This document shows positions 35,323 through 64,000 of a stretch of DNA of 64,000 bases, in pieces (positions within the stretch are counted from its first letter, which is position 1; each line of letters begins with the position of its first letter). The notes beneath the pieces are model-generated. The model was not told the origin of the DNA. It worked only from the letters and a program-made list of their open reading frames with translations, and did no database searches. The DNA comes from Candidatus Rikenella faecigallinarum (GTDB taxonomy: Bacteria; Bacteroidota; Bacteroidia; Bacteroidales; Rikenellaceae). The translations under genes and the position numbers were made by a program. The stretch lies in NCBI GenBank assembly GCA_019113395.1, contig DXHL01000019.1, positions 96,811 through 160,810 of the forward strand, read 5' to 3'.

Positions 35323-35466
35323 CGTTCTCTCCTCTGCATTACACATTATTCCGACCGCCGCAAGTTCCCGCTTCGTCGCCTCTCACAGGGACAGACAGCA
35401 CCAGACCTGAAAAAGTATTTTGAAGATTTTTTATTTTTGCCGCGGCAAAAAATAAGAAATCTCTAC

Positions 35467-57855: not shown

Positions 57856-58245
57856 GGTCGGTTCCGTTTTTTTGTGAGGAGCGGCACCAAATTTTCCGCT
57901 TGGGTGCTGCAAGGTTCAGGTATGGTGTTGTCCTGCCGCTTGATGCACCCAAATAATTGTCAGAAAATCAGGCCACAAAGATAGCAATTCTTACACAACC
58001 TGCCACTGCGGTTGGTTTACCACTGCATAGGTAGTATTTTTTGTTGGCATTTGGTATAAATTTCGCATTTTTCACCCAAAAGCGACCACCACTGTCGCCA
58101 TTTTGGCCATTTTCACGGGTTCTGGCCATCTCCAATCCAACCTAAAAACGCCCACATTTCCCACGCAACAGCTACCACAGGTTTACCGCAGCAAAAGAGT
58201 TTTATCAAGAATTATGCCACATTTCCCCTGAAAAATGAAATAGTT

Positions 58246-58398
58246 ATGACAAAAAGGAAGATAGAGAAAACTTATTGCGAGACGATTGCAATGTTTCGCA
58301 CAATTCTTCGGCTCATGGAGTTGGGTTCCGAATCATCCTCTCCTTCTGCCCGCTTTCCCAAAAGTTCCCCTGAACTTCCGCTCACCGTATTCCGTTAA
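58246..58398 (+). CDS. candidate 50-aa small ORF in an otherwise unexplained intergenic region
   Basis: ATG 58246 to TAA 58398: MTKRKIEKTYCETIAMFRTILRLMELGSESSSPSARFPKSSPELPLTVFR. No homology check possible. Confidence 0.2.
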   Translation: MTKRKIEKTYCETIAMFRTILRLMELGSESSSPSARFPKSSPELPLTVFR

Positions 58399-58401
58399 GG
58401 G

Positions 58402-59043
58402 TTATTTCGCTTTGCTTTTCCGTTTGGCCAAACTATCCTCCACCCAGCGGTCAATCACCTCCTCCACGCCGCGGATGTACTCTTCCCACCCTGCCTGTGT
58501 CTGCAGGGCAATCCCGTTGTAGGTCGGGCAACTCTCCTCGAGTAGCGCCAGATAACTGACCGACGCCGCCACCAGCGTCGCCAGAGGAGCTACTTCGGCT
58601 GTCGGCCGCTCCGTCAGGGCGGCGACAGCCTCCACCAGCCGCACCCCCGTGGCTTCGCGCTGCTGCCGCAGCGCTGCCACCACAGCATTCGCTCCGCTCA
58701 ACTCCCACCGATAGAGCCGCCGCAACGTCACATCCTGCCGCAGGTGGTCCACCTGGGCGCGAAACAGGGCTTTCAGATAGGGTGCCAGTTGTTTCCGTTT
58801 GCCGGGGAACTCCGAACGATAGTTAATCCAGAAGTCATGCGCCTCGATATAGGCGGCTATCAGCCCATCGAGTGAACCGAAATAACGGTATATCAACACT
58901 TTTGATACCCCGGCCCGTTCGGCTACGGCATTTACTTTCAGTTGTTCGAAACCGCTCTCGGCCACCATCTCGCCCACCGCCTGCAACAGGGCCTTTTCGG
59001 TTGTCTGTCTGTCTTTTTCCGTCCGCAATTTTGCGTTTTCCAT
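58402..59043 (-). CDS. TetR-family transcriptional regulator
   Basis: Start MENAKLRTEKDRQTTEKALLQAVGEMVAESGFEQLKVNAVAERAGVSKVLIYRYFGSLDGL HTH. Confidence 0.92.
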   Translation of the reverse strand: MENAKLRTEKDRQTTEKALLQAVGEMVAESGFEQLKVNAVAERAGVSKVLIYRYFGSLDGLIAAYIEAHDFWINYRSEFPGKRKQLAPYLKALFRAQVDHLRQDVTLRRLYRWELSGANAVVAALRQQREATGVRLVEAVAALTERPTAEVAPLATLVAASVSYLALLEESCPTYNGIALQTQAGWEEYIRGVEEVIDRWVEDSLAKRKSKAK

Positions 59044-59055
59044 AAGCAAAAACAA

Positions 59056-59104
59056 AAGTTACCTTTCGGTTACAAAGATATGTAACCAAAAGGTAACTTC
59101 CAAA
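59056..59104 (-). promoter_or_regulatory. tetR promoter with overlapping TetR operator-like inverted repeat
   Basis: IR aagttacctttcggttac (59056-59073) / gtaaccaaaaggtaactt (59082-59099), 17/18 matches; -7 TATCTTTG on minus strand (59080-59073) and -33 TTTG (59104-59101), spacer 20 nt. Confidence 0.8.
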
Positions 59105-59127
59105 TCCAAACACATCCCCACTTCCGC

Positions 59128-60732
59128 CTACACCATGTCGTCGCCCGTTTTGGCGTATTTGACACGTATCGTCTTGTGGAACGGGATAAAACGCGAGACG
59201 ACGGCTATCACCAGCGACACCACGAACAACCATCCCAGAATCTCCTTCAGCGCCAGCAAGAGACTCTGCTGCTGGACAATCTGATGCAACTGGGTTATCG
59301 CCATTTGGTTGACCTCGGCATAGCCATGTCCCTGAGCCAGGGCACCGTTCAGCGCCGTTTGGTATCGTTCGGCGGCCAACGGGTCTAGCAGCGTAAAGTT
59401 ATCGGCCAGCGAGTGGGTATATTTTTGCTGCAGGTGGTAGAGCAGGTTGCTGTAGAACGATGTAGCCATCACGGGAGCCAGCGCCGAACGGAAGGTAATC
59501 AGGAAAAACGCGTTGTAAATCAAGAATTTCGGATTGAGTTCCTCGACAGCGAAGAGGGCAAAGGCAATAATCAGGGTCAGCATGCCGAGGCCTCGGATGA
59601 ATATGGGGAAGAAGAGGCTTTCGTAGGTGCTGTCAGGCGAAATGCCGAAGTAGAGCATTCCGAAAAAGAGGGCAAAACAGGCCATTCCACCGGCAATCAG
59701 GAATCGGAACCGCCACCGCTGCCAGCGGAACCACCAGAAACAGACGAATGCGGCCAGGCAGTAGCCCGGCAGGAGATAGATATAGAGCGTGTAGGTACGT
59801 GTGGGGTCTACCTGCAGGATGGAGGTCATGTAGTTGGTCAGCAGGGTAGTCGAGGTACTGAAGAACATGACTATCATCATGTAGAGATACCCGACAATGG
59901 CTTTGGGCTGGTAGAGGGGTTCGAGCCTCAGGTAGGGTTTGCGGGCGTGATACTGGTTCCAGACAAAGAGTGCGATAAGCATCGGTGCCAGTACGATGTA
60001 TAGCCGAATGCGGAACGACGACATCCAGTCGAGGAGTTTCCCGTAATTGATGACATACATCAGCATGAGCAGTCCGGCCGAGATAAGGAGCATTTCGCGC
60101 AGGTGGAGGTCAGAGAGGGGTATTTTCTCCAGCGCACGGTCATGACGAAAAAAGAGCGCCACCAGCAGAATAGCCACCAGCAGCAGTATCATCATGAAGT
60201 AATACATATACTGCCAGTTGTAGTAGTAGGCCAGTTCGGCGGTGATAATCATCGAGAGCTGCCCGCCGCAGAAGACCAGCGGGTAGAAGTAGGCATAGAA
60301 TTCGCTACGGACGTTGTTCGGGCTGAATATTTTTTGGAGGCGGTGGATTCCCCATAGCATCAGGAATGCCTTGAGGAATCCGATGGCGAAGCTGCAGGCA
60401 ATCAGCACATCGGCATTGTGTGAGCGGGCACAAATCCAGCTCAGCACGAGTTGCAGGAGCAGGTCGCCGAGCAACAAGACTTTCGAGGACAAGGCACGCA
60501 ACACCCTGGGGATAATGGGGTATGCTACCGCCATGCCTGCCGAGGCGGCATAGTAGCCCATGGTAATATCTTCGGTGTCGGTGCCGAGGGTGTTCGAGAC
60601 CTCGAGCATGCTCCCGGTGTAGGAGCCGTTGAGCATCGTGATGGGGATAATCACCACAAAGAGCGCGACCACCGCCACCCAGTCGGGCACCCATCGGCGC
60701 AGGGGTATTTCGAGGGTTTCGGCCGTAATCAT
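59128..60732 (-). CDS. MFS drug:H+ antiporter (EmrB/DHA2-like)
   Basis: 534 aa, about 14 TM; TLGTDTEDITMGYYAASAGMAVAYPIIPRVLR; next to EmrA-like gene. Confidence 0.85.
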   Translation of the reverse strand: MITAETLEIPLRRWVPDWVAVVALFVVIIPITMLNGSYTGSMLEVSNTLGTDTEDITMGYYAASAGMAVAYPIIPRVLRALSSKVLLLGDLLLQLVLSWICARSHNADVLIACSFAIGFLKAFLMLWGIHRLQKIFSPNNVRSEFYAYFYPLVFCGGQLSMIITAELAYYYNWQYMYYFMMILLLVAILLVALFFRHDRALEKIPLSDLHLREMLLISAGLLMLMYVINYGKLLDWMSSFRIRLYIVLAPMLIALFVWNQYHARKPYLRLEPLYQPKAIVGYLYMMIVMFFSTSTTLLTNYMTSILQVDPTRTYTLYIYLLPGYCLAAFVCFWWFRWQRWRFRFLIAGGMACFALFFGMLYFGISPDSTYESLFFPIFIRGLGMLTLIIAFALFAVEELNPKFLIYNAFFLITFRSALAPVMATSFYSNLLYHLQQKYTHSLADNFTLLDPLAAERYQTALNGALAQGHGYAEVNQMAITQLHQIVQQQSLLLALKEILGWLFVVSLVIAVVSRFIPFHKTIRVKYAKTGDDMV

Positions 60733-61796
60733 CGTCTGAGGGCTTCGGTTTCGACCATCATGCCGGCCCGCAGCAGCGCCATATCGTCATCCGATACCCC
60801 TTCGAAGTCGATGCGCACGGGGATACGCTGCTGGACCTTGACAAAGTTGCCCGCCGCATTGTCGGTCGGCACCAGCGAATATTTCGAGCCCGTGGCCTCC
60901 GAAATGGCCGTCACCCGCCCCCGAAAAATCCGTCCGGGCAGCGCATCCACCTTCACCCGCACCTCCTGTCCGAGGTAGATGTGTACGATTTGGGTCTCCT
61001 TGTAGTTGGCCGTAACCCACTTGTCGCGGCTGCGCACCAGATAGGAGATGGCCTGCCCCGCCTGCACGAACTGCCCCGGTTCGAGCGTCCGACGACCGAT
61101 GTAACCGTCGTAGGGTGCTGTCAGCACCGTGTACGAGAGGTTCAGCCGAGCCATATCCAGGTCTGCCTCCTGACGCATTACTCCTGCCTCGGCGCTCACC
61201 GTGCGTTTGTCGGCCTCGTGGTACTGCGACTCGGCCGCACGCTTCTGCTCGACAATGGCCTGATAACGCGCCCGTGCCGCTTCATAGGCCGCCTTAGCCT
61301 GTTCGTACTGCTGCTCGGGCACCGACTCCTCGCGCAACAACCGCTCGAAACGGTGGTAGTCCTGTTCGGTCTGCCACAGTTTGGCTTTGGCCTCGGCAAT
61401 GTTCGCATCCTGCACCGCCACGTTGGTTTGCGAAGTACGGACACCCGAATGCACCACGTCCTGTGCCCCCCGTGCGTCGAGCAGCGCCGCTTCGGCCTCC
61501 TTGACCCGAATGCGGTACTCGCGGTCGTCGAGCAGCAGCAACGTATCCCCCGCATGCACATACTGATGCTCCGTGAATCGCACCTCACGAATATAACCCG
61601 CCACCCGTATGTTCAGCGGGGCCACATACTGGTCGATATAGGCATCGTTGGTCACCTCGTAGTGGATGTAACGCCAGAAATAGGAGGCCGTAAACCACAA
61701 TCCCGACCCCGCCAGCAGAATACACACCGTGTTCAGCACGATGTTCCGCATGCGGTGTTTTCGCAGCCGCTGCTGCTGTTTTCTCCAATCGCCCAT
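60729..61796 (-). CDS. HlyD/EmrA-family membrane fusion protein
   Basis: NDAYIDQYVAPLNIRVAGYIREVRFTEHQYVHAGDTLLLLDDREY; overlap with the MFS gene. Confidence 0.93.
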   Translation of the reverse strand: MGDWRKQQQRLRKHRMRNIVLNTVCILLAGSGLWFTASYFWRYIHYEVTNDAYIDQYVAPLNIRVAGYIREVRFTEHQYVHAGDTLLLLDDREYRIRVKEAEAALLDARGAQDVVHSGVRTSQTNVAVQDANIAEAKAKLWQTEQDYHRFERLLREESVPEQQYEQAKAAYEAARARYQAIVEQKRAAESQYHEADKRTVSAEAGVMRQEADLDMARLNLSYTVLTAPYDGYIGRRTLEPGQFVQAGQAISYLVRSRDKWVTANYKETQIVHIYLGQEVRVKVDALPGRIFRGRVTAISEATGSKYSLVPTDNAAGNFVKVQQRIPVRIDFEGVSDDDMALLRAGMMVETEALRR

Positions 61797-61817
61797 AGTC
61801 GAAAATCCGTCTGATTC

Positions 61818-63137
61818 TTAGAGTCGTCCCGTGACCTCCAGAAGTTGATAATAGGTATAAATCACCCGTGTCCGCGCAGCGGTCAGTTGCAGTTCCACCT
61901 CCAGCAGCACGGCATTGGCGTCGAGCAGGTCGGTCAGGATGGCCAGTTGATTGAGGTATCGGTTCTGCATGATGCGGTAGTTTTCGCGCGCCTGCCGCGC
62001 CGAGAGCCGCAGGGCTTCGACCTCCTGCAACGCCTCTTCGTGGCGCAGATAGGCAGTCCGCACCTCCACCCGCAACTGTTGTATCCGCTGCTGCTCGGCA
62101 TTCTGCCGCAACGCCACTCCCAGCCCCGTCGCCCGGATGCGGTGGTTCTCCTTGTATAGGTTCGACAGCGGCATGGTCAGCGAAAGCCCAATGTTCCAGC
62201 CGTTGTTGTAGAGGTCCTCCTGTGTCCGCGCAATGGGCCTCGCCAGCGTGTTCGACGCATAGGCCGACAGGTCGGGCAGAAGCACCGACCGCGCCAGCGG
62301 AACCTCGTTCCGTGCCAGTTCGGTCTGCATCCGCAGTTGTGCGAGCGTCGGGTCGAGGTCACACGCCTCGGCCACATAGGATTCGTAACTGCCGACCGGC
62401 AGCGGTTCGGACAAGAGTGTCGTGTCGGGCACCAGCATCAGGGTCTCCTCCAGCCCCAACAGAATATCGAGTTGCTGAGAGGCAATCCGCAGGTTGTTGC
62501 GGGTCTGCTGCAGCGCCAACTGGTCGTCGGTCAGCTGCATCTCGCTGCGCAAGACGTCGTTCGTGGTTATCAACCCCTCACGCTTCATGCGCCGAATGTC
62601 CTGCAACCGCCGCTCCGACTCCTCGATGTTTCGGTTCAGCACCTGCTCCTGCCGATAGAGGTTGAAGAGTTCGAGGTACTGCCCCATCAGGCTCAGCTTC
62701 ACAGCCGAACGGTCACCGCCCGTCTGCAACGCCGCCAACGAAGCCTCCAACTCGGCCTTGCGCACGGTGTATTTCACTCTGCCTCCGCTGTAAATCTTTT
62801 GGCTGACATCGACGGCATAGTTTTGCGACCACCGCGGCACATCAGGATGATACGGGTCACTGAGTCCACGGCGGAAAATCACCGGCTGCCCCACATAGGC
62901 CCCCTGCAGCCCGACGTTCAAATCGGGCAGGCGGTCTGCGCGTGCCGTTCGCTGTTGCAGTCCGGCCACCTCCTCCTCCAAGGCATCGGCCTGGAGCACC
63001 AGACTGTTGGCCACCCCCAGTTCAAAGAGCTGCTCCACGGAGAGCTGCAGTGTATCGCCAGGCTGTGCTTGTACTCCGAGACAGTCTCCGATACCCAGCA
63101 GCACGAAACTCCATATTTTAAGCCTTCTGCAAAGCAT
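61818..63137 (-). CDS. TolC-family outer membrane efflux protein
   Basis: 439 aa; LQLSVEQLFELGVANSLVLQADALEEEVAGLQQRTARADRLPDLNVG; overlaps marR end by about 20 nt. Confidence 0.92.
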   Translation of the reverse strand: MLCRRLKIWSFVLLGIGDCLGVQAQPGDTLQLSVEQLFELGVANSLVLQADALEEEVAGLQQRTARADRLPDLNVGLQGAYVGQPVIFRRGLSDPYHPDVPRWSQNYAVDVSQKIYSGGRVKYTVRKAELEASLAALQTGGDRSAVKLSLMGQYLELFNLYRQEQVLNRNIEESERRLQDIRRMKREGLITTNDVLRSEMQLTDDQLALQQTRNNLRIASQQLDILLGLEETLMLVPDTTLLSEPLPVGSYESYVAEACDLDPTLAQLRMQTELARNEVPLARSVLLPDLSAYASNTLARPIARTQEDLYNNGWNIGLSLTMPLSNLYKENHRIRATGLGVALRQNAEQQRIQQLRVEVRTAYLRHEEALQEVEALRLSARQARENYRIMQNRYLNQLAILTDLLDANAVLLEVELQLTAARTRVIYTYYQLLEVTGRL

Positions 63138-63561
63138 CCTCTATCTCCATTAGTTCACGGGTCATCCGTTGTATCCGTTGCAGCCCGAGGTGCTGTTCCA
63201 ACCGGGCATACTGTTCGTTCAACAGGGGTAAAATCCGATGCCAGAAGGCCTCTCCCTCGGGCGTCATAAAGACCAGTTTGTTTCGTCGGTCGGCGGGGTC
63301 TTCCCGACGGTAGATATAGCCTTTGCGCTCCAGATTGTTCATCAGGCTGCTCAGGGTCGCTTTTCCCTTGGCGGTTCTCTCGGCCAGGACCTGTTGCGAG
63401 ACGCCCTGTTCGCGCCAGAGGCTGCTCATCACCTGCACCATTTCATACGAGATTCCGACCCCGTGATTTTTCAGCAGACGCATCACGCACTGTCGAAAAG
63501 CGATGCGCATCCGCACGATTTCGATTTGGAGCGTACGGAAGTCGTTACCGGGCATGTTCAT
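63118..63561 (-). CDS. MarR-family transcriptional regulator
   Basis: 147 aa; winged HTH VSQQVLAERTAKGKATLSSLMNNLERKGYIYRREDPADRRNKLVFMTPEGE. Confidence 0.93.
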   Translation of the reverse strand: MNMPGNDFRTLQIEIVRMRIAFRQCVMRLLKNHGVGISYEMVQVMSSLWREQGVSQQVLAERTAKGKATLSSLMNNLERKGYIYRREDPADRRNKLVFMTPEGEAFWHRILPLLNEQYARLEQHLGLQRIQRMTRELMEIEDALQKA

Positions 63562-63590
63562 GGGGTGGGTGTTTTATCAGATTCCGGATG

Positions 63591-63636
63591 CAAAGATACG
63601 GCACGGGTGCGGAATAGTCAAATATTTGACTATTCC
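63591..63636 (-). promoter_or_regulatory. promoter of the marR-tolC-emrA-emrB operon with overlapping palindromic operator
   Basis: Perfect 26-nt palindrome ggaatagtcaaatatttgactattcc (63611-63636); -33 TTTG on minus (63622-63619) inside it, 20-nt spacer, -7 TATCTTTG (63598-63591), ATG at 63561. Confidence 0.88.
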
Positions 63637-64000
63637 AACGCATTTTGCAGGAAACGGATATATTCCCGATTGTTTTTGACCAGCACCTATCCGAAAAAAT
63701 ACTACCGACAACAAACATTCAGACAAATAAACAACCGAATAGTAAATGTTTCAAAAGCAATTTAACAAGTTTCAGTTGGATCTCTAAAAACACCCCAAAA
63801 GCAGAAAAGAAAAAACTCTAAATTTAATTACTAAAATTTACAGAAGAGAGCACCATTGTATTTTTGGTTACTTTCTTTTCAATTATTCCAATTAGCAAAA
63901 TGCATAGTAATTTGTTAAGCTAGACTACTATTTAATACAACCAAATGTAATATATTGCATTTTCACAATATTAAATACTTTTTATACTTTTAGAAGTAAA

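Follow-up and report, generated by a model that had tools for sequence, protein, structure and literature searches.

A predicted MarR operator built into the promoter of an EmrAB-like efflux operon of a gut Bacteroidota

Introduction

Pseudomonas MexR and Staphylococcus MepR are local repressors of efflux genes, the former controlling an RND pump and the latter a MATE pump. In E. coli, EmrR represses the emrRAB operon through an inverted repeat reported near the −10 and is released by substrates of the pump, according to the published account (PMC6469979). For Bacteroides the consensus of the primary sigma factor is TTTG at −33 and TAnnTTTG at −7 (PMC7366714). The control of efflux in gut Bacteroidota is poorly characterised, and the literature that we searched describes no MarR operator for an EmrAB-like pump in these bacteria. 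Here we analyse such a locus in a 64-kb stretch of DNA (the window) and name a candidate operator, TAGT-N10-ACTA, together with its repressor, its promoter and a predicted transcription start site (TSS). The combined pattern of operator and promoter finds orthologous switches across the order.

Gene content of the operon

The operon consists of four genes:

63118..63561, minus strand, marR, MarR-family winged-helix regulator of 147 aa, proposed as the operon's own repressor and as responsive to a ligand (Pfam, AlphaFold/Foldseek)
61818..63137, minus strand, tolC-like outer-membrane efflux protein (OEP; PF02321, 165 bits)
60729..61796, minus strand, emrA-like membrane-fusion protein, an HlyD/CusB-type adaptor (TIGR00998, 236 bits; PF13437)
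59128..60732, minus strand, emrB-like MFS transporter, DHA2-like (PF07690; TIGR00711, 75.9 bits)

Overlaps or gaps between the genes are no more than about 20 nt; the start of tolC overlaps the end of marR by 20 nt and emrB overlaps emrA by 4 nt. A regulator, an adaptor and an MFS pump are found within one operon, as in the EmrRAB-TolC arrangement. The right end of the window is also the end of the contig and the gene upstream of marR is therefore out of view.

The marR product matches both PF01047 (38.3 bits against a cut-off of 24.6) and PF12802 (38.9 against 27). Its AlphaFold model, with a pLDDT of 93.1, has N- and C-terminal helices that are predicted to form the dimer region and a winged helix-turn-helix with its wing (H6-32 ... 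H67-79, E83-88/E91-99, H101-125, H127-146). The best 50 Foldseek matches of the model are MarR-family or MarR-like regulators. DNA complexes of MepR, HpaR, SlyA, HsmR and FabT are among these top matches, and MexR is matched as well. On the Pfam matches and this confident structural model, the protein is assigned to the MarR family. Its best sequence match in the PDB is HosA and its best NCBIfam match is HpaR, though it exceeds the cut-off of no NCBIfam equivalog (HpaR, 44.3 against 121.2 bits; MprA, 29.9 against 157). The emrA product is similarly below the equivalog cut-offs of TIGR00998 (236 against 391) and PRK15136 (163.6 against 563), as is the emrB product for TIGR00711 (75.9 against 230). 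Because the cut-offs for EmrR/MprA, EmrA and EmrB are all missed, we describe the system as 'EmrAB-like' and not as an EmrRAB orthologue.

The palindrome and the marR promoter

Three features lie upstream of marR:

63611..63636, no strand assigned, candidate MarR operator GGAATAGTCAAATATTTGACTATTCC, a 26-bp palindrome conserved at the marR promoters of relatives
63619..63622, minus strand, −33 element TTTG, part of the palindrome's second half (sigma-AB consensus, PMC7366714)
63591..63598, minus strand, −7 element TATCTTTG, separated from the TTTG by 20 nt and conserved amongst relatives

The 26 bp of GGAATAGTCAAATATTTGACTATTCC are their own reverse complement without a mismatch. The bases that flank it are C and A, so the symmetry ends at 13 bp per arm. 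The core that is conserved in other genomes, TAGT-N10-ACTA, corresponds to 63615-63632. That the palindrome might be due to chance and have no function is suggested only by the fact that A+T-rich DNA has other inverted repeats. It is, however, the longest spacer-less perfect palindrome of the window, the runner-up being 18 bp, and 26-bp palindromes are expected by chance at 0.0012 per window. No 26-bp palindrome arose in 60 dinucleotide shuffles of the window, where the longest was 24 bp, and the conservation described below spans genera and families. We reject chance on the strength of the shuffles and the conservation. Elsewhere in the window there is an 18-bp perfect palindrome, TTTTTGCCGCGGCAAAAA (35434-35451), ~20 nt ahead of an ORF that starts MRKSLIALAFGTLGLGIAEFVMMG... 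and looks MFS-like by eye; this is possibly another operator.

The 20-bp core of the palindrome is single-copy in the 2.07-Mb assembly with up to 3 mismatches allowed. As the site is unique in its own genome, the regulation would be local. Just one other sequence in the genome comes close, AGTCAAATCTTTGACC, with 2 mismatches (G000:C34:29502; L048, ~1500-1520), upstream of a MATE transporter. A terminator-like hairpin lies between this match and the transporter gene. A wider regulon through AGTCAAATCTTTGACC was rejected, since 0.2-0.5 such matches are expected by chance.

Read along the minus strand, the palindrome's second half provides the TTTG, which is followed by a spacer of exactly 20 nt (63618-63599), by TATCTTTG and, further downstream, by the marR ATG at 63561. 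The initial annotation had described both the fully symmetric palindrome and this promoter layout, and its coordinates and letters are exact. TTTG-N20-TATCTTTG has the form of a Bacteroidota sigma-AB promoter, in which TTTG at about −33 and TAnnTTTG at −7 are about 19-21 nt apart. Setting the −7 box at about −11 to −4, we infer a TSS near 63587, so that the palindrome would span about −49 to −24, with its centre at about −36.5. The pattern TTTG-N19-21-TANNTTTG occurs three times in the window, and two of these matches are the promoters of marR and of tetR, a gene beyond emrB. Both have the 20-nt spacer and TATCTTTG, in agreement with an earlier claim that the two promoters share their spacing and −7 box.

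With perfectly matched arms of 13 bp, the palindrome could also fold in a read-through transcript, in which case it would be an RNA hairpin, either a terminator or an attenuator, and not a protein site. Against this, it is A+T-rich and, being upstream of the predicted TSS, would be outside the mRNA of this operon. Moreover, the upstream ORF nearest marR is found in either orientation amongst relatives, with no constant neighbour, whereas the palindrome is nearly fixed relative to the marR −7 box. An Rfam search of 58000-64000 also gave no matches, and a hairpin seems highly improbable.

Conservation of the site amongst relatives

Across 200 family genomes a clear marR orthologue occurs in 13, not counting that of the window. 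The order marR-tolC-emrA-emrB is kept in all 13, with identities to the window of 39-67% for marR and 63-89% for emrA, and each has a dyad at the marR promoter, perfect or degenerate, that resembles TAGT-N10-ACTA. When the loci are aligned on the −7 box, information peaks in the dyad and in the −7 box while the flanking DNA has diverged. (For locus L034 this alignment used TAATTTTG; the correct −7 box, TACCTTTG, was used for the covariation and the register below.) The dyads of the closest relatives are TTAGTCAAAAATTTGACTAA and similar. In more distant relatives the inner ten bases differ while TAGT-N10-ACTA or a near match stays, as in AATAGTTTAATATCGAACTATT, TTTAGTATAATATTTTACTAAT and AATAGTTTGAAATCAAACTATT. 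Perfect symmetry over 26 bp is peculiar to this species. The dyads of most relatives are imperfect, and two loci from elsewhere in the order, L060 and L061, have longer perfect palindromes of 32 bp, whose outer bases vary between species yet remain symmetric.

At the level of the order 29 loci with MarR homologues were compared. The three in which a strong match to tolC or emrA lies downstream all carry the site, two exactly and one at 7/8 core bases; these are L059 (marR-tolC-emrA), L060 (marR-tolC) and L061 (marR-emrA-emrB). In the other 26, where there is no strong downstream tolC or emrA match, no site was seen. A Fisher test of this comparison counted L059, the 7/8 match, as a carrier, and we do not rely on it. 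One additional locus, L090, has the site. A search for related loci in a contig collection gave a single distant match, from Chloroflexi. In distant Bacteroidia (L101, L104, L105, L107 and L115) TAGTTG-N6-CAACTA is seen near the start of the local MarR gene, and similar sites lie just upstream of MarR gene starts in L093, L106 and L112. From these sequences TAGT-N10-ACTA looks like a broad word of a MarR subfamily in Bacteroidia.

The composite pattern GTCAAANNTTTGAC-N16-20-TANNTTTG was found in 9 of the 200 family genomes, with one match each, always directly upstream of this marR; a reversed-control pattern scanned through the same 200 genomes gave no matches. Put another way, ten genomes have a marR with 50% identity or more and nine of these contain the pattern, against 0 of the 190 others (Fisher P about 9e-15, with genomes treated as unrelated). 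When a variant, TAGTTGAATATTCAACTA, was scanned through 393 genomes of the order, it was found in two, in both cases at the promoter of this marR. A close emrA (at least 62% identity) is present in 15 family genomes, 14 of which have marR. The one that lacks it, G050, has emrA-emrB (locus L129, G050:C8:142500-151500), and the 9 kb analysed there contain no dyad of this kind. As this genome has the pump genes while lacking both marR and the palindrome, the site tracks the regulator and not the pump. At the same locus a TetR-type gene and an ORF resembling an efflux protein are found downstream of emrB, an apparent swap of regulator to judge from the genes present.

These comparisons bear on whether the palindrome could serve another regulator, such as the TetR whose gene follows emrB, or a global factor of the FNR/CRP type. 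The tetR gene is only ~72 nt beyond emrB and, as noted above, its promoter has the same spacer length and −7 box as that of marR. No tetR relative, however, lies beside the operon within the 5-10 kb covered in the 13 relatives from the family, all of which retain the palindrome, and tetR has an unrelated dyad of its own:

59056..59099, no strand assigned, tetR dyad, with 19-bp arms (59056-59074 and 59081-59099) that are complementary at 18 of 19 positions around the tetR −7 box

This is probably a TetR autorepression site, outside the conserved marR unit; it is centred on the −7 box and so differs in geometry from the marR operator. TetR was accordingly rejected as the binder of GGAATAGTCAAATATTTGACTATTCC, as the unit is conserved without tetR, which carries a separate dyad. 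For a global regulator a pattern other than a single copy in the genome would be expected, and the palindrome is absent from G050, where marR is absent. Some other dimeric regulator that travels with the operon could use the site, but overall we regard control by a protein other than MarR as very unlikely.

Covariation of the arms and promoter register

The arms were compared at 18 loci over half-positions 1-13, which gives 234 positions in all. Within a locus the arms pair at 189 of the 234, against a mean of 154 (SD 5.5) when arms are swapped between loci (P 0.0002, which is only indicative as the 18 loci are related). The excess comes from the inner end (positions 1-5; 77 of 90, against 58 after swapping) and the outer end (positions 10-13; 48 of 72, against 33), with plain conservation at half-positions 6-9. 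Such covariation is the pattern that a homodimer making symmetric contacts would be expected to give. In E. coli, template switching makes quasipalindromes more perfect (PMC7202029), and mutational template switching could contribute to the symmetry of the arms here.

The distance from the centre of the dyad to the −7 box is 24-26 bp in 14 of these loci; one locus has 28 bp and three have 16-17. Twelve of the 18 have a TTTG 18-20 nt ahead of the −7 box, supplied by the proximal half-site in ten and by the distal half-site in two (G066 and G061). The remaining six have no exact TTTG at a suitable distance, so the overlap with the −33 element is typical and not universal. In G066 and G061 the dyad centre is 16-17 bp from the −7 box, ~9 bp closer, and the TTTG of the distal half-site takes the −33 place. 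L061 has a similar register, with its centre 16 bp from the −7 box, and TTG rather than TTTG. The shift of register was seen in few independent cases. It is conceivable, though less likely than not, that one operator is used in two registers, with half-site and sigma element forming a shared word that fixes the spacing of the operator, and with the inner and outer bases drifting symmetrically, perhaps through template switching at the quasipalindrome. The marR frames of the G066 and G061 loci (L044 and L045), which are from one genus, stop early at different places, around residues 95-99, while the operator dyad is kept, perfect or nearly so. From the reading frames, loss of the repressor is possible at these two loci.

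Discussion

We propose, with a probability of about 0.9, that the palindrome is the operator of the operon's own MarR, which would exert local autorepression of marR-tolC-emrA-emrB by covering the −33 element. A MarR-type operator and autorepression of the whole operon had been suggested in the initial annotation, and the suggestion draws support from footprinting across relatives, co-occurrence with marR, covariation of the arms, gene order and the MarR fold. We infer the binding of MarR, repression as the direction of control and occupancy by a dimer from sequence. A MarR homodimer would sit on the palindrome, each half-site taking one winged helix, in the region from about −49 to −24 of the only recognisable sigma-AB promoter of the operon. 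The bound protein would mask the TTTG of the −33 element and exclude RNA polymerase, so that marR and the EmrAB-TolC-like pump would be repressed jointly. An exported or toxic small molecule, the ligand class being a guess, would bind MarR and release it from the DNA, and pump and repressor would then rise together in a negative feedback loop. Bile salts, phenolics and drugs are the possible inducers named in the initial annotation. An operator of this kind would be an ordinary mode of control, here with unusually good support from sequence.

MarR could instead act at the palindrome mainly as an activator, or as a dual regulator, and not as a simple repressor. A site centred near −36 also fits recruitment of RNA polymerase in some systems, and EmrR is reported to activate some genes (PMC6469979). 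In the same source, however, EmrR represses its own operon. The site also overlaps the −33 element itself, and that box is intact in close relatives, where a helper is not obviously needed. It would seem very improbable, then, that activation is the main role, and we favour repression.

The proposed switch can be compared with several known systems. HpaR and HosA are the top NCBIfam and PDB sequence matches of MarR, but the score of 44.3 bits is far under the HpaR equivalog cut-off and the operon has no genes for aromatic catabolism. MexR (4zzl) and MepR in complex with DNA (4lln) share the MarR fold, with a Foldseek probability of 1.00, at only 18-23% identity. The promoter has the TTTG near −33 and the TAnnTTTG at −7 of Bacteroides sigma-AB promoters; unlike these promoters generally, its −33 TTTG is built into the predicted half-site of a repressor. 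With E. coli emrRAB there are clear differences. The operator of emrRAB is reportedly centred near the −10, whereas here the centre would be at about −36.5, covering the −33 element; tolC is inside the operon here, and the promoter and sigma factor are those of Bacteroidota; MarR reaches 29.9 of 157 bits for MprA and EmrB is below the TIGR00711 cut-off. The likeness to emrRAB is in the arrangement, with a MarR-family gene first, followed by an EmrA-like adaptor and an EmrB-like MFS pump, and with an inverted repeat on the operon's own promoter. On the best reading by analogy, the proposed switch would work like E. coli emrRAB, the closest studied system, and with the same logic.
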